From NCBI RefSeq assembly GCF_002950575.1, contig NZ_CP026923.1:62001-126000 (forward strand): a stretch of DNA of 64,000 nucleotides. Direction: 5' to 3'. The translations under genes were made by a program, and so were the position numbers. The DNA comes from Pontimonas salivibrio (GTDB taxonomy: Bacteria > Actinomycetota > Actinomycetes > Actinomycetales > Microbacteriaceae). Shown one piece after another: positions 12,736-58,470 of this stretch (positions within the stretch are counted from its first letter, which is position 1; every line of letters starts with the position of its first letter). A model generated the notes under the pieces. It was not told the origin of the DNA. It saw only the letters and a program-made list of their open reading frames with translations, and ran no database searches.

Positions 12736-14442
12736 ATGTCACCGAACCAGCCGATCTCACCCCACCAGCTGATTCCACCCCGCAATCACGGACGCCCGTG
12801 GGGCAGCAACGCCACGCCGCGAGCGTCGCATGTTGGGGTCGGGGACCCCTCCCGGTCAATTCTCACGGCCCTCACCATGTGTCTTGCGTTGCTTTTGGTG
12901 ATTGGGGCCGGCAGCCCTGTAGCGCTGGCGGCCGATAAGGGTGTCCTCCAGACGGCGAGTGTGAAGTGGGATAGCGCAGACTCGGATACCGCCATCTGGA
13001 CCGGTGGAGCTCCCGTCGATTTTGTGCGAGAAGAAAACGGTTGGCGCGACGCACCCTTTAGTGCGATTGGCCAGTTTGGTCTCGCGATGACCTTCCCCGG
13101 AATCGATTCGCGGCGGGTGGACTATGTCAACCGGAATGAGACGACCACCATCGAACAGGGCGTCATCCACACGATGGAATTGGATAACCGCATCATCATT
13201 GATGGCACTCGCAGGGCCCAGGTACAACCCACCATCACCGCTGAAGGCAGTTCGCTGCGATTTGATATCGACTTCGCTGATGAGCGACCAAACTCAATAA
13301 GCAGCCAGCGGGTGTACTTGAACGTCGATTTCGCTGCCGGTGGGACCATCGTCTACGACGATTCCGTCCCACAGGCAGTCATTGCCGCCGATAGTTCGGA
13401 TGAGAAAGCACTCGTCGTGCTCCACGTCGATTCCGATGACGGCGACGCCGTCATCGGAGGTCGCACACTACACACCGATCCGCTGGCAGACGGCGATTCC
13501 GAAGCCACCGCGTATGTGCGAAACATCACTGGCGCCAGTCTGACTGTCACCGTCCACGCTTTTGTCATCGACTATGAACCGTGTGCCAAACAGGCCGCTC
13601 TCGCTACTGCAGAAGCAATCGCTGCAGACCCGACAAGTTGGTTTGGCGAAGTGATCCCTGTCCACTCAGAATGCGTGAGCAACACGACGTGGGAATACAC
13701 CAGTGGTGTGGAGGAAGCCCAGACCATCTCACTCGCCCTCGACAACGCTCTGTCTGACCCCGAAGGCACCACCCGTCGATTTTCGATCGAGGGCCTCCCG
13801 AGCTTCCTCAACTCCAGCATCGACCTCGAGAGTGAGCCCGCCACACTTTCGCTCACGTCCCGCTCGGAAGAAACCACCGGTACCTACCCGCTCACGTTGC
13901 GCAGTTGGCGAGAAACACCCAGCGGTGAGACCACACTGCGCGAAGCGCCACTCATTTCCGACATCTCTCTCACAGTCGCCGCACCGCCACCGTCTCCCGA
14001 GCCAGAACCAGAACCAGAGCCAGAGCCAGAAGTGGAACCGGAACCCGAAACCGAAACCCCGCCTGTTTCCCGTTTGGATAAGCGCTCCTCATCGAAAGAC
14101 GACGATGACTCCGAGGCGCTCATCGTGCCACTCACACCGGCAATGCCGGCGCCGATCCCGGCGCCACAACCATCACCAGTGACGCCCGAATTGGTGGATG
14201 ATTCGGGTTTAGAAGCGGAAGACACCCCAGAGCCCGATTTCCAGCTTCAAGACTCTGGACCCACGACGCCGCTACCCGAGAGCCCCGAACTGCCTGAGGC
14301 GAGTGAAGTTGCCGCGCCACCAGAGCTCAACCTGTGGCGGAGTTTCTGGTGGGTGTGGGTCGCCACCGGTGGGGGGCTCATTAGCTGGGCCGTGTTGTTA
14401 GCCTGGAAGCGCAGAAAAGAGCCACAACGCCCGACCTATTAG
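12736..14442 (+). CDS. Large secreted surface protein with a Pro/Glu stalk and C-terminal anchor
   Basis: Not a recognised family. The 568-residue protein has an unusually long polar head of about 40 residues, then a signal-type helix ending GAGSPVALA, an extracellular region of about 370 residues with two cysteines, a stalk of Pro-Glu repeats near residues 415-440, a low-complexity Pro/Asp/Ser segment, and a final helix with a basic RKEPQRPTY tail. There is no LPxTG sortase signal. GGAGG at 12726-12730 supports the ATG at 12736. A stable hairpin follows the stop. It lies between purM and purF, so it may be an insertion into a conserved purine block. Surface display is inferred from layout. 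Confidence 0.75.
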   Translation: MSPNQPISPHQLIPPRNHGRPWGSNATPRASHVGVGDPSRSILTALTMCLALLLVIGAGSPVALAADKGVLQTASVKWDSADSDTAIWTGGAPVDFVREENGWRDAPFSAIGQFGLAMTFPGIDSRRVDYVNRNETTTIEQGVIHTMELDNRIIIDGTRRAQVQPTITAEGSSLRFDIDFADERPNSISSQRVYLNVDFAAGGTIVYDDSVPQAVIAADSSDEKALVVLHVDSDDGDAVIGGRTLHTDPLADGDSEATAYVRNITGASLTVTVHAFVIDYEPCAKQAALATAEAIAADPTSWFGEVIPVHSECVSNTTWEYTSGVEEAQTISLALDNALSDPEGTTRRFSIEGLPSFLNSSIDLESEPATLSLTSRSEETTGTYPLTLRSWRETPSGETTLREAPLISDISLTVAAPPPSPEPEPEPEPEPEVEPEPETETPPVSRLDKRSSSKDDDDSEALIVPLTPAMPAPIPAPQPSPVTPELVDDSGLEAEDTPEPDFQLQDSGPTTPLPESPELPEASEVAAPPELNLWRSFWWVWVATGGGLISWAVLLAWKRRKEPQRPTY

Positions 14443-14460
14443 GGCGGGCTGAGGCCCGCC
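14443..14460 (+). terminator. Hairpin directly after the surface protein gene
   Basis: GGCGGGC and GCCCGCC form a perfect 7-bp GC stem with a TGAG loop, beginning one base after the TAG stop. There is no T-run, so termination would be weak or Rho-assisted. It separates the surface protein gene from purF. Confidence 0.5.
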
Positions 14461-14597
14461 AGTGTCTGGGCGATGGCCAGGGCGTTGTGACCACCACGTG
14501 CACCCACACCAACCCGGGTGGGTGTGCCACACTTAAGGTCAAGGTTCATTCTCCTGGTGCGGATCAGGAGACCTCCGAAGGGGAGTCTGGCCGGGGC

Positions 14598-16055
14598 ATG
14601 TGTGGCATTGTGGGCATGGTCTCTACGGGCCCGGTTAATCAAGACATTTACGACTCTTTGGCCCTACTCCAACACCGCGGGCAAGATTCGACCGGGATGG
14701 CCACCCTCGAAGGTGGCGGCTTTCACATCCACAAGGCCAAAGGCCAAGTGAAAGAGGCTTACCGCACCCGCGATATGCGCAAACTGCGCGGTACGACGGG
14801 TCTTGGTCACGTGCGCTATGCCACCAAGGGAAGTGCGAAACGAGAAGAAGAAGCACAACCTTTTTACGTGAACTCGCCGTTTGGCATCGTGCTCGTGCAC
14901 AACGGGAACCTCACCAACACTCGCGAGTTAACCGCCCAACTTCACGACCAAGACCGCAGGCACTTAAACACCACCTCGGATACGGAACTCTTGGTCAACG
15001 TGTTAGCCCGTGAGCTCCAAGTTGCCCAGGATGGCAAAGACTTCAACCCACAACAGCTTTTCACGGCAATCACTCGCGTTCACGAACGAGTCGAGGGCTC
15101 CTATGCGGCGATTGCCCTCATCGCGGGCCATGGCTTGTTGGCTTTTCGGGATCCGTTTGGCATCAGACCTCTGGTGTTAGGGCGCCGGCAAGCAGGGCTT
15201 TTGGGAACCGAATGGGTTGTCGCCAGTGAATCGCTCGTACTCGAATCAGGCGACTACGACATTGTGAAAGACATCGCCCCCGGCGAAGCGGTGTTTATTT
15301 CCACTGGAGGTGAACTTTTCGAACAACAGTGTTCACCCTCCCCGCAGATGTACCCGTGCTCGTTTGAATACGTCTATTTGGCGAGACCAGACTCCACCAT
15401 GAACGGTATTTCGGTTTACGAAGCCCGGCTTCGACTCGGTGACCGACTCGCCGCCACCATCGCCAAACATGCCCCGGTGAAAGACATCGATGTGGTGATG
15501 CCCATTCCGGACTCCGCGCGACCCGCCGCGATGCAGGTCGCCAGACGCTTAGGCATCGAATACCGCGAAGGTTTCTATAAGAACAAATACGTCGGGCGGA
15601 CATTCATCATGCCGGGTCAAGCCCAGCGGACAAAAAGTGTGAAACAGAAACTCAACGCCCTCCCCAGCGAATTTGAGGGCAAAAACGTCCTCATTGTCGA
15701 CGACTCCATCGTCAGGGGCACCACATCGAAAGAGATTGTGGAAATGGCACGGCGTGCAGGTGCCAAATCGGTGACGTTTACCTCAGCGGCGCCACCGGTG
15801 CGCTACCCCCACGTGTACGGCATCAATATGCCAAGCAGTAGTGAATTGGTCGCCGCGGGGCGAACCATTCCCGAAATCACTCAAGAAATTGGTGCGGACT
15901 ACCTCATCTATCAAGAAGTTGAGGACATGAAGGACGCCATCCTCGAAGGCTCCGACATCACGGAGCTTGATATGAGCTGTTTCACCGGTGAATACTGCAC
16001 CGGCAACGTCGACCAGGAATACTTGGACTGGTTAGAGGGCAACCAGTCGAGTTAG
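14598..16055 (+). CDS. purF: Amidophosphoribosyltransferase
   Basis: First committed step of purine synthesis: PRPP plus glutamine to phosphoribosylamine. The start is the ATG at 14598, giving MCGIVGMV with the catalytic cysteine right after the initiator Met, so no propeptide is needed; the 37 residues upstream in the open frame look non-coding. The glutaminase domain has LLQHRGQDSTGMAT and HNGNLTN; the transferase domain has the PRPP motif VLIVDDSIVRGTTSKEIV near residue 370. The 485-residue length is usual. The end overlaps the convergent membrane protein gene by 4 bases. Confidence 0.95.
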   Translation: MCGIVGMVSTGPVNQDIYDSLALLQHRGQDSTGMATLEGGGFHIHKAKGQVKEAYRTRDMRKLRGTTGLGHVRYATKGSAKREEEAQPFYVNSPFGIVLVHNGNLTNTRELTAQLHDQDRRHLNTTSDTELLVNVLARELQVAQDGKDFNPQQLFTAITRVHERVEGSYAAIALIAGHGLLAFRDPFGIRPLVLGRRQAGLLGTEWVVASESLVLESGDYDIVKDIAPGEAVFISTGGELFEQQCSPSPQMYPCSFEYVYLARPDSTMNGISVYEARLRLGDRLAATIAKHAPVKDIDVVMPIPDSARPAAMQVARRLGIEYREGFYKNKYVGRTFIMPGQAQRTKSVKQKLNALPSEFEGKNVLIVDDSIVRGTTSKEIVEMARRAGAKSVTFTSAAPPVRYPHVYGINMPSSSELVAAGRTIPEITQEIGADYLIYQEVEDMKDAILEGSDITELDMSCFTGEYCTGNVDQEYLDWLEGNQSS

Positions 16056-55358: not shown

Positions 55359-55382
55359 GTCAATCACCCCAGCGTGATTGAC
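55359..55382 (+). promoter_or_regulatory. Inverted repeat just before the TspO-like gene
   Basis: GTCAATCAC (55359-55367) and GTGATTGAC (55374-55382) are perfect 9-base arms with a 6-base spacer. The right arm ends 7 bases before the ATG at 55390, so it covers the ribosome binding site region. It could be a repressor operator or an RNA hairpin that hides the start. Confidence 0.6.
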
Positions 55383-55389
55383 TGGCGTT

Positions 55390-56202
55390 ATGACCCAGCA
55401 ACGTTTTCTCCGAATTTTCGCGGCCATTGCTTACGTGTTCATGATTGTGATGAATACTCTGGCGACCACCCTTCCCCTTAATGGCATCCCCACGGGTGAT
55501 ATTTCGGACAAATACGACACACTGTTTGCCCCCATCGGGTTTACGTTCTCAATCTGGGGCGTCATCTACCTCCTTTTAGGTATCTACACTGTGGGCCAGT
55601 TGGTGCGCACCAACAGTGTGATTGACAGAATCACCCCGTGGTTTATTGCCAGCAGTCTGCTAAACGCTTCTTGGATTGTGATCTGGCACTTTGAAGTGTT
55701 GTGGTTGGCGCTGCTGATCATTATCGGTCTGCTGTACACCTTGATTCGCATCAACCAGGTCACCACCTCTGAGCGTGTGGACTGGCCCAACACCTTGGCG
55801 GTACGCCTACCGTTTGCCGTGTACTTCGGCTGGGTTACTGTCGCGACCGTGGCGAACGTTTCGGCCATGCTGGTCCAGTGGGGTTGGCAGGGCGAAGGCT
55901 TCTGGGGCCCCACAGGTTGGACTGTGGCCGTGTTGATTGTGGCGGCTACGATTGGTACCACTGTCGCATTGATCAACGCTTCCCCCGCTTATGCCCTGGT
56001 ATTGGTCTGGGCCTATTGGGGCATACTCGCCAGACACCTCTCACCCGAGGAGTGGAATCAGGAATACCCGGGAGTAATCCTTTCGCTCCAAGTGTTACTG
56101 CCGTTATTGGCTCTTGTGAGCGTGGTGGCATTGGTCCGGTGGGCCCGAAAGCCAGTAACACCACTACCCACGGCATCTTTGTGGGCGAAGCGGACCACGT
56201 AG
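55390..56202 (+). CDS. TspO/MBR-related tryptophan-rich membrane protein
   Basis: A 270-residue protein with about seven hydrophobic helices and frequent tryptophans (GFTFSIWGVIYLLLGIY, WIVIWHFEVLWLALLI, WGWQGEGFWGPTGW). It belongs to the longer bacterial group related to TspO, which binds tetrapyrroles and is often linked to light or stress responses. The ATG at 55390 is preferred over TTG at 55378. A strong inverted repeat lies over its leader. Carotenoid genes in the window make a photo-protective role plausible but unproven. Confidence 0.72.
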   Translation: MTQQRFLRIFAAIAYVFMIVMNTLATTLPLNGIPTGDISDKYDTLFAPIGFTFSIWGVIYLLLGIYTVGQLVRTNSVIDRITPWFIASSLLNASWIVIWHFEVLWLALLIIIGLLYTLIRINQVTTSERVDWPNTLAVRLPFAVYFGWVTVATVANVSAMLVQWGWQGEGFWGPTGWTVAVLIVAATIGTTVALINASPAYALVLVWAYWGILARHLSPEEWNQEYPGVILSLQVLLPLLALVSVVALVRWARKPVTPLPTASLWAKRTT

Positions 56203-56260
56203 GTCTGGTACCGGGCTTTCCCCGACTAGTTTCGCGGACAATATCCCTGAAATCGGATTT

Positions 56261-56346
56261 TGTGGAGCCTAATCGGCTCACAAGCCCTCTACATCGGCTT
56301 GTTTGAGGCGCTGTTTTGGGAAATTACAACAATAAATTACAACTAT
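56261..56346 (-). repeat. tRNA-Ala-end repeat, copy 1 (cassette boundary)
   Basis: An 86-base unit that begins TGTGGAGCCTA, the same 11 bases that span the 3' end of tRNA-Ala(TGC) at 58311-58321, and ends with two AAATTACAAC boxes (56321-56330 and 56334-56343). It aligns without gaps to copy 2 at 56874-56959, 67 of 86 identical by hand count. The stop codon of the GNAT gene lies in its last bases. Confidence 0.8.
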
Positions 56347-56849
56347 CTCTGGCTGAGCGACTTTCGGAGAAGCACCCTGTCTTCGCCCGCCCCGTCGTAG
56401 TCCCTCACGCCTTGCGCCTCGCTCGGTAACGCGGTCGACCCATTTGGCTCCACCGCCACAAAACCGAGTGCCTCGTGGAACGCCAAAGAGCTCTGGTTCG
56501 ACGGAGAAGTCACGGCTTCGATGTTTGAGCACCCAACAGACACAACCTGTTCTTCGAAATGTTGATATAGTCGCCGCCCGAGCCCTCTGCCCCTCTGTGT
56601 AGGGTCGACTCCTATGAAATGAACGTAAGCGGTTGCCTCGTCATTGTTTTGGACGTAGCCCACCAGAAATCCAACTGGTCGTCCTTCGTCATCCCGCACC
56701 GCGAAGCAGGTTTCCGAGAAATGCTTGAACCAGAGTCGGGGGAGCATGGCTGACATTGATCGGCCACCCCACCATTCGTCGAGGCGAGCCGACAGATAGT
56801 CAAAGTCCGCTTCCGTCAGCTGAGTGATGCCAATCATCTTCTTAGTCAA
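56343..56849 (-). CDS. GNAT-family N-acetyltransferase
   Basis: Acetyl-CoA-dependent acetyltransferase of 168 aa. The acetyl-CoA loop is GVDPTQRGRGLGRRLY near residues 75-95, with the preceding strand YVHFIG and a later NQSSLAFHEALGFVAVE typical of the fold. The acceptor is unknown; small-molecule or antibiotic acetylation are options. It is the only gene between copies 1 and 2 of the tRNA-end repeat, reads in the direction of the tRNA, and its stop codon is inside copy 1. Confidence 0.85.
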   Translation of the reverse strand: MTKKMIGITQLTEADFDYLSARLDEWWGGRSMSAMLPRLWFKHFSETCFAVRDDEGRPVGFLVGYVQNNDEATAYVHFIGVDPTQRGRGLGRRLYQHFEEQVVSVGCSNIEAVTSPSNQSSLAFHEALGFVAVEPNGSTALPSEAQGVRDYDGAGEDRVLLRKSLSQR

Positions 56850-56873
56850 GCAGACAGCTACAGATCATCAAAT

Positions 56874-56959
56874 TGTGGAGCCTAGTTGGATCCACTCGCC
56901 CCTACATCGGCTTGTATAAGCCTCTGTTTTTACAAATTACAACTAAAAATTACAACTAT
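56874..56959 (-). repeat. tRNA-Ala-end repeat, copy 2 (cassette boundary)
   Basis: Second 86-base unit, same layout as copy 1: TGTGGAGCCTA at 56874-56884, the shared ACATCGGCTTGT core in the middle, and AAATTACAAC boxes at 56934-56943 and 56947-56956. Read on the minus strand, its end resembles the 3' half of tRNA-Ala (CAAGC, AGGGG, GATCC, TAGGCTCCACA in the same order). It includes a short GGCTT/AAGCC hairpin. It lies between the GNAT gene and the MFS gene. Confidence 0.8.
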
Positions 56960-57053
56960 TCCAGTCAGTCTCTGTCACTATCTCAATATTGCGTCCACAG
57001 TCCGGAATACGACTACGCCGATTTTGCAAACACCGACGAACTAGACTTTCGCA

Positions 57054-58301
57054 ATGAAAAGAATTCACCCCGCTTGGATTGTCGGTGGTGTTACTTTTCT
57101 GACGCTCATCGCCGCTGCTGCTTTTCGCTCAACGACTTCGGTCATGTTCGTGCCTCTCGAAACGGAATTCGCCTGGACACGAACTCAAACATCTGCTGCG
57201 GTCACACTAAATCTCATTTTCTATGGCCTGACAGCTCCATTTGCTGCCGTATTCATGGAGAAGTATTCGGTAAAGAAAGTCGCTCTTGCCGCACTCGGAC
57301 TAATTGGGCTGGGAACTGTACTGACTGTTTGGATGACCAGCCTCTGGCAACTAGTTCTTTACTGGGGAGTGATGGTCGGGGCAGGGACAGGAGGCCTTGC
57401 TCTCGTGTTTGCCTCAATTGTCGCTAACCGTTGGTTCGTCAAACGCCGAGGGCTCGTGACGGGAATCTTTTCGGCTGCATACGCAACGGGTCAACTTGTC
57501 TTTCTTCCCCTCATCGCCAACATGGTCACACAACTCGGTTGGCGAACAGGCTCGCTGATTGTCGCGGGATTTGTGGCGGTGGTAATACCCATCTTCATTC
57601 TGTTTTTTAAAAATAGCCCTGCGGAAGCCAACAGCTCGGCATATGGGGCGACGGCGGATGAACCCACCTACACAGAAGCCCCGAGAAGCCTTCTGGACAC
57701 TTTTACAGTTTTGTTTGAAGTTGCTAGAACCCGGCAATTCTGGGTACTGAGCGGGACGTTTTTTGTGTGCGGTTGGACGACAAACGGACTTATCGGGGCA
57801 CACTTCATCCCAGCTGCTCATGACCACGGAATGCCTGCTACCACAGCAGCTGGGCTCCTGGCAGTCGTCGGCATCTTTGACTTCGTCGGGACAATCCTTT
57901 CTGGGTGGCTAACCGATCGTTTCGATTCTCGAATTCTGCTCGTCATTTACTACGGGCTCAGAGGTCTCGCTCTGTTCTCCGTGCCGTTCGTCCTTGGGCC
58001 GACTGTAGAGCCGCCTCTCCTCTTCTTTGTCGTTTTTTATGGGCTGGACTGGATTGCGACTGTGCCGCCGACAATCGAGCTGATCCGACGATATTTCGGA
58101 CTTGGCAAGACGGGAATCGTTTGGGGATGGGTCTTTGCAAGCCACATGGTCGGTGCGGGCGTCGCAGCAACCTATGCAGGGGTGATTCGTGATCTTGAAG
58201 GAAGCTATTTCCTCGCATGGATTACTGCAGCTGTCCTCTGCTTAGTTGCGGTCGCTGCTTTCTGGCTACTTCGGAAAGATGATGTTGCACCGAAACGATA
58301 A
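57054..58301 (+). CDS. MFS transporter of the monocarboxylate/OFA type
   Basis: A 415-residue membrane protein with twelve helices. The pattern FVPLETEFAWTRTQTSAAVTL after helix 1, and VGAGTGGLALVFASIVANRWFVKRRG with GIFSAAYATGQ near helices 4-5, is typical of the MCT/OFA branch (oxalate, formate or other organic anion exchange). The substrate cannot be told. The ATG at 57054 is clear. It reads against the tRNA direction, ends 10 bases before the tRNA-Ala repeat end, and appears somewhat more A+T-rich than core genes. It is the tRNA-proximal cassette gene. Confidence 0.85.
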   Translation: MKRIHPAWIVGGVTFLTLIAAAAFRSTTSVMFVPLETEFAWTRTQTSAAVTLNLIFYGLTAPFAAVFMEKYSVKKVALAALGLIGLGTVLTVWMTSLWQLVLYWGVMVGAGTGGLALVFASIVANRWFVKRRGLVTGIFSAAYATGQLVFLPLIANMVTQLGWRTGSLIVAGFVAVVIPIFILFFKNSPAEANSSAYGATADEPTYTEAPRSLLDTFTVLFEVARTRQFWVLSGTFFVCGWTTNGLIGAHFIPAAHDHGMPATTAAGLLAVVGIFDFVGTILSGWLTDRFDSRILLVIYYGLRGLALFSVPFVLGPTVEPPLLFFVVFYGLDWIATVPPTIELIRRYFGLGKTGIVWGWVFASHMVGAGVAATYAGVIRDLEGSYFLAWITAAVLCLVAVAAFWLLRKDDVAPKR

Positions 58302-58312
58302 GTGTTGCTTTG

Positions 58313-58385
58313 TGGAGCCTAGGGGAATCGAACCCCTGACCTCCTGCTTGCAAAGCAGGCGCTCTACCAATTGAGCTAAGGCCCC
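58313..58385 (-). tRNA. tRNA-Ala(TGC)
   Basis: Read on the minus strand: GGGGCCT acceptor pairs with AGGCTCC (one G-T pair), D arm AGCTC, anticodon stem CCTGC/GCAGG around TTTGCAA (anticodon TGC), T arm AGGGGTTCGATTCCCCT, discriminator A at 58313. CCA is not encoded (CA A follows). Its 3' end is the apparent attachment site of the accessory segment to the left. Confidence 0.95.
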
Positions 58386-58396
58386 TTAGTAAGGGG

Positions 58397-58470
58397 TGGG
58401 GCTACCAGGACTTGAACCTGGGACCTCTTCGTTATCAGCGAAGCGCTCTAACCGCCTGAGCTATAGCCCC
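58397..58470 (-). tRNA. tRNA-Ile(GAT)
   Basis: Minus-strand acceptor GGGGCTA pairs with TAGCCCC; D arm AGCTC with GAGC; the anticodon loop CTGATAA gives anticodon GAT; T arm CCAGGTTCAAGTCCTGG; discriminator A at 58397, CCA not encoded. The order gyrB-gyrA-DUF3566-tRNA-Ile-tRNA-Ala is the usual actinobacterial one. Confidence 0.95.

Follow-up and report, generated by a model that had tools for sequence, protein, structure and literature searches.

Streamlined aquatic bacteria are known to carry additive flexible genomic islands in which the tRNA end is repeated, as exemplified by fGI-2 at tRNA-Lys in 'Ca. Methylopumilus', where units can be as small as one gene (PMC10872708), and by the tRNA direct-repeat cassettes of 'Ca. 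Actinomarinales' (PMC7771536). Tandem accretion at tRNA genes is also found in CIMEs, elements regarded as decayed forms of ICEs or IMEs (PMC5704250), and the tandem ssrA islands of Dehalococcoides are bounded by repeats of the RNA-gene 3' end, about half of them lacking an integration module (PMC3146451). Tycheposons measure 4-200 kb and encode a tyrosine recombinase (PMC10872708).

We describe here a tRNA-Ala(TGC) locus in the small marine actinobacterium Pontimonas salivibrio CL-TW6, for which we found no earlier report in the literature searched. It combines the two features that characterize additive islands, apparent serial insertions with a repeated tRNA end and gene content that differs between close relatives at the same locus. 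As in those islands, small gene sets are added serially at a tRNA of a streamlined aquatic bacterium, with one copy of the tRNA end per insertion. Unlike them, where the repeated tRNA end has 20 bases, the Pontimonas repeat is a structured site of ~87 bp with arms; almost every unit consists of just one gene, and an integrase family can be named. The units share with CIMEs the lack of an integrase, putative att-type boundaries, tandem arrangement at a tRNA 3' end and a probable reliance on another element, with the tRNA core on both sides and arms on the distal side only. They differ from CIMEs in consisting of single genes, with one type of site throughout the genus and one-sided arms, and we saw no ICE or IME remnant genes in them. 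The islands of Dehalococcoides are likewise tandem and bordered by RNA-gene 3' end repeats, but they involve serine recombinases and many kb, whereas the Pontimonas units measure <2 kb and their sites have tyrosine-integrase features. Tycheposons are also tRNA-anchored cargo of marine plankton with tyrosine-recombinase-type integration, but the units described here span 0.4-1.7 kb and have no recombinase, which places them outside that class. In kind, the locus is akin to the additive islands and CIMEs already known; its novelty lies in units of one gene that have a one-sided site in common.

Organization of the tRNA-Ala(TGC) locus

The genome of P. salivibrio CL-TW6 is complete (1,760,810 bp), and the window analysed here is a 64 kb stretch of it. 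The tRNA-Ala(TGC) gene, the putative attachment target, occupies 58312..58385 on the minus strand (ARAGORN and sequence), adjoins tRNA-Ile(GAT) (58395-58470), and ends on its own strand with TAGGCTCCAC. Starting from tRNA-Ala and following its direction, one meets an MFS transporter gene, an 87-bp repeat, a GNAT acetyltransferase gene, another 87-bp repeat and the core genome. Pfam and direct-repeat analyses agree here with the first-pass annotation, which had recognized two lone genes, each closed by a repeat on its tRNA-distal side.

The MFS gene (57054..58301, plus strand; Pfam MFS_1, E 1.3e-36) forms the first unit. Its stop codon lies 10 bp from the tRNA junction, and its closest NCBIfam profiles, of the lactate and oxalate/formate type, scored below cut-off. 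The tRNA-proximal junction of this unit is the copy of the core located where the tRNA ends, TTGTGGAGCCTA (58310..58321, plus strand), an exact match to both repeats; its putative distal attachment half-site is the direct repeat at 56873..56959 (repeat 2, plus strand; core 56873-56884), a type of site also present in seven further genomes of the genus. Pattern searches of the genus and spacing analysis revealed within repeat 2 paired arm-type sites, AAATTACAACTAAAAATTACAACTA, with a 13-bp period (56934..56958, plus strand). The GNAT gene (56343..56849, minus strand; Pfam Acetyltransf_1, E 5e-21) forms the second unit, and its stop codon falls within the arm end of that unit's putative distal half-site, the direct repeat at 56260..56346 (repeat 1, plus strand; core 56260-56271), where the same analyses placed the paired arm-type sites AAATTACAACAATAAATTACAACTA, again with a 13-bp period (56321..56345, plus strand). 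The first core gene past the array (55378..56202, plus strand), identified by comparison with loci L045, L046 and L047, encodes a 274 aa membrane protein without a Pfam match and, where the site of a relative is empty, lies directly behind tRNA-Ala.

Within the window there are exactly three occurrences of the 12-mer TTGTGGAGCCTA (56260, 56873 and 58310), against an expectation of 0 and with this count reached in 0/100 shuffles, so that a chance match of the tRNA end was rejected. The two repeats are 78% identical without gaps; the tRNA end shares with the 87-bp repeat only ~12 exact bases (85% identity over 20 bases). Of the three places listed at first, those at 56260 and 56873 carry the repeat, of 87 bp rather than 86, and the one at 58310 is the tRNA end itself. 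The same proposal had called for genome-wide searches for the repeat and for a tyrosine recombinase. The first of these returned two copies in the whole genome, and the repeat is therefore not a general dispersed element.

Distribution of the repeat and variability of its cargo

BLAST and HMM searches of 19 genomes of the genus detected the 87-bp repeat in eight of them (G000, G001, G005, G006, G007, G009, G011 and G018), always at tRNA-Ala or its core flank. Outside the genus, a sequence model found none among 300 genomes of the family, using stricter filters that weak matches may escape. A weak match near tRNA-Ala(CGC) in G002 was discarded, having no core and being at chance level for 300 genomes. 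Repeats and tRNA-Ala(TGC) are on the same contig in G000, G001, G006 and G011. For G005 and G007 the link runs through contigs that overlap by 124 and 55 bp, respectively. The contigs of G009 and G018 stop short of the tRNA, their repeats adjoining core sequence that a relative has behind tRNA-Ala. The relatives are mostly draft genomes, many of them metagenome-derived, and the array often coincides with a contig break.

The repeat closes at least 11 different genes in these eight genomes, the 106-aa one only by a weak repeat. Each unit contains one main gene, in either orientation, and in the single-gene units the gene end is close to the site. In G005 the succession reads tRNA, a 112 aa gene with a TipAS domain, repeat, Asp/Glu racemase, repeat, DUF1349, repeat and core; the cargo consists of the 112-aa and 106-aa genes in G001, a 364-aa gene in G011, a multicopper oxidase in G018, 90-aa and 483-aa genes in G009, and a lipoprotein gene plus the 90-aa gene in G007. 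The 90-aa cassette adjoins the tRNA in G006, is the final unit ahead of the core in G007, and precedes the 483-aa unit in G009, keeping its own distal repeat in G006 and G009. Across the 19 genomes the site is filled in eight, empty in five and not assessable in six. Among the empty sites, those of G003 and G017 have the counterpart of the 55378-56202 gene within ~90 bp behind tRNA-Ala, G004 has it likewise but with a longer gap, and G008 and G014 have core genes behind tRNA-Ala and no repeat.

These comparisons lend good support to the first suggestion, made from the sequence alone, that units of one gene each were inserted serially at a tRNA attachment site: gene content varies among repeat carriers, empty sites exist, and one cassette has different neighbours. 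Gene order was not conserved among the relatives, in which variable genes are closed by the same repeat.

Some draft assemblies break at or just behind tRNA-Ala (L230, G018:C11, position 1; L228, G009:C2; L231, G007:C62; and G005:C91/C120); for G018 the break coincides exactly with the 3' end of the tRNA. These breaks fit a mixed population at the site, without proving it. Additionally, a terminator-like hairpin with a T-run opens some cassettes right after the core, behind tRNA-Ala (L228 and L231) or behind the first repeat (L028), and these cassettes look as if they replaced the terminator of the tRNA operon itself.

An alternative is that the units are not cassettes but fossils of larger integrative elements, accreted as in CIMEs, that lost the integrase and one arm pair and were reduced to single genes because small genomes delete the rest. 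Such accretion is established (PMC5704250), several repeat cores are mutated, and autonomous tRNA-Ala elements do exist (see below), two of them with a GNAT gene. Nevertheless, at least 11 different genes in eight genomes would each have been trimmed to one, with the gene end near the site, whereas neither intermediate-sized remnants nor integrase fragments were seen between repeats and the 90-aa unit is present in three genomes, each time among other neighbours. We consider this explanation unlikely, though more probable than the other alternatives.

We also compared the closely related arrays of G001 and G005, which are 94.1% identical along the 6.2 kb flanking them towards gyrA. The first cassette is common to both (96.5%), the later ones are unrelated, and the two arrays also differ by one 13-bp arm unit. 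Identity fades within the repeat, ~40 bp ahead of the core, which hints at some homologous recombination. Were recombination between repeats or flanks, following DNA uptake from relatives, the main force reshuffling the array, site-specific recombination could be old or rare. This seems improbable to us, since repeats that are ~70-80% identical and <90 bp long are poor substrates, and it would leave unexplained both the tRNA core in every repeat and the geometry of the arm sites.

Architecture of the sites and integrase-bearing elements

The composition of the repeat goes beyond what had been recognized in it at first: a core identical to the tRNA end is accompanied by spaced, arm-type direct repeats, as would be expected of a phage-type tyrosine-integrase site. 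Elements that encode such an enzyme and use the same tRNA end were found. Among the extra integrases of the genus, one is encoded on contig G004:C65 (4,350 bp), which starts with GTGGAGCCTAGTT, at the core used by the cassettes. This contig encodes the integrase (418 aa), a GNAT protein and a 619-aa DUF4379 protein, with direct arm pairs GTAGCCTAT near both contig ends. The two closest relatives of this integrase among 400 genomes of the family come from two other genera, in each of which the integrase gene immediately follows tRNA-Ile-tRNA-Ala(TGC). Our comparison involved three integrase elements, from the genus member G004 and from G335 and G146, other Microbacteriaceae. In the two from other genera, the tRNA end recurs 9.0 or 5.7 kb away, preceded by an arm pair, and the arms of the distal site also adjoin the tRNA. 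The GNAT gene and that for a large DUF4379 treble-clef protein are adjacent in both L233 (G004:C65, 427-3031) and L266 (G335, 13168-15854), constituting a recurrent cargo of tRNA-Ala elements from different genera.

An arm pair was recovered in five of the eight cassette sites examined and in all three integrase elements. The distance from inner arm to core was 49-53 bp in those five cassette sites and 55, 56 and 62 bp in the integrase elements, with an arm period of 12-13 bp throughout. Of random windows, ~1% contained a direct repeat with this kind of spacing that matched at 9/9 positions, and ~6% one that matched at 8/9 or more. The cassette arms, AATTACAAC, were unlike the arm sequences of all three integrase elements. 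No arm motif was present within 130 bp of 16 tRNA-proximal ends, indicating that the cassette arms are one-sided. The autonomous tRNA-Ala elements, in contrast, carry arms on both sides, and for this reason it is not certain that a unit could move alone.

A cassette-like arm pair lies away from tRNA-Ala (L254, G014:C14, 155-179), beside what looks by eye like a PIN-type toxin-antitoxin pair; the arm pair was rejected as a cassette site for want of a recognizable core, and is perhaps a degenerate or secondary site. In another genus of Microbacteriaceae (G100:C4, L294/L296), a lone alpha/beta hydrolase gene behind tRNA-Ala(TGC) is flanked by two ~100 bp copies with 97% identity (L296, 2133-2282 and 3047-3146), which start at the tRNA core and contain a terminator, the repeat being on the tRNA-proximal side; the same behaviour may have arisen here separately. 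In L269 (G038:C36), tRNA-Ala(TGC) is present twice (509-582 and 1504-1577), the downstream copy being complete and ~0.9 kb away from the other, perhaps through an insertion that restored the whole tRNA.

Cassette-sized single-gene units stacked at one site, each with one repeat of attC-like length, might also suggest a true integron, whose integrase would act on the repeats in the form of folded single-stranded DNA. RNAalifold, run on 11 sites without DNA parameters or attC-specific models, yielded no conserved base pair, and the genes are in both orientations. Furthermore, the genome encodes no integron integrase IntI, its XerC and XerD scoring far under the integron-integrase cut-offs. Membership among integrons or CALINs is consequently not supported, and we regard it as extremely improbable; the early description of the locus as integron-like survives as an analogy. 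The units do resemble integron cassettes in being single genes with one recombination site each, the newest presumably beside a fixed entry point, but differ from them by the lack of IntI and of a foldable attC, by the use of a tRNA gene as the entry and by the arm repeats in their sites.

Recombinases and search for a helper integrase

The genome paper does not confidently call a single gene phage-derived, and its text mentions neither integrase nor recombinase (PMC6106888). XerC and XerD were the only tyrosine recombinases that we found in the P. salivibrio CL-TW6 genome, with no recombinase of the resolvase type, and the single-gene units themselves contained no integrase, in agreement with the first-pass annotation.

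As the sole tyrosine recombinases of the host, XerC and XerD might themselves move the units. This is very unlikely: Xer proteins are not known to have an arm-binding domain, so the paired arm sites would have no reader, and the tRNA core does not seem to resemble the actinobacterial dif site.

We looked for a phage-type helper in the genus, in phages, plasmids and viral contigs and in a sample of the order. This search did not reveal any integrase with arms matching AATTACAAC. For the tycheposon-satellite reading raised at first, in which the units would use the integrase or capsid of a helper, the candidates are accordingly limited to the tRNA-Ala integrases of relatives, whose arms are different. 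The phage and viral records searched did not contain the repeat; core and arm patterns had no match in phages, short chance matches only in plasmids and unrelated matches only in viral contigs. Phages contained only distant relatives of the G004 integrase (<60% identity), and a profile built from the three tRNA-Ala integrases detected nothing in viral contigs and, at E 1e-50 and without a positive control, had no matches in 396 genomes of the order.

A model for the mobilization of single-gene units

Together, the architecture of the sites and their distribution lead us to favour, with reasonable though not full confidence, the view that the 87-bp repeat is an attachment half-site for a phage-type tyrosine integrase and that the units are non-autonomous single-gene elements mobilized in trans. 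Each unit would be a minimal non-autonomous element composed of one gene and one half-site, the latter comprising the core (TAGGCTCCAC plus the left core half) followed, ~50 bp away, by an arm-type site or a pair of them (AATTACAAC, 13-bp period). The integrase would be specific for the 3' end of tRNA-Ala(TGC) and would read these arms. The excised unit would form a circular intermediate recombining through its core (TAGGCTCCAC) with the tRNA 3' end, leaving the tRNA intact with the newest gene as its neighbour; earlier units would be shifted outward along with the core genome, behind their own repeats. Because the units have no integrase, the enzyme would act in trans from an incoming or co-resident element, most likely an autonomous tRNA-Ala element like those of G004, G335 and G146; the reader of the half-site may thus be an unseen member of that integrase family.

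More tentatively, and as a view we put forward with rather less conviction, Pontimonas could possess a tRNA-anchored counterpart of the integron: a pool of single-gene cassettes with one-sided half-sites of ~87 bp and an integrase encoded elsewhere in the community. Cassettes would then be captured, stacked and reshuffled at tRNA-Ala(TGC), and streamlined genomes need not keep the enzyme.

Streamlined marine bacteria seem poor in mobile elements. The half-site provides a search handle and, with related integrases now named, the idea is testable. If it is true, a docking tag of ~87 bp and a borrowed integrase would explain how such bacteria gain accessory genes, here transporters, acetyltransferases, a TipAS-type domain protein and a multicopper oxidase, without machinery of their own; P. 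salivibrio and its relatives would seem to swap accessory genes singly, with a borrowed enzyme.
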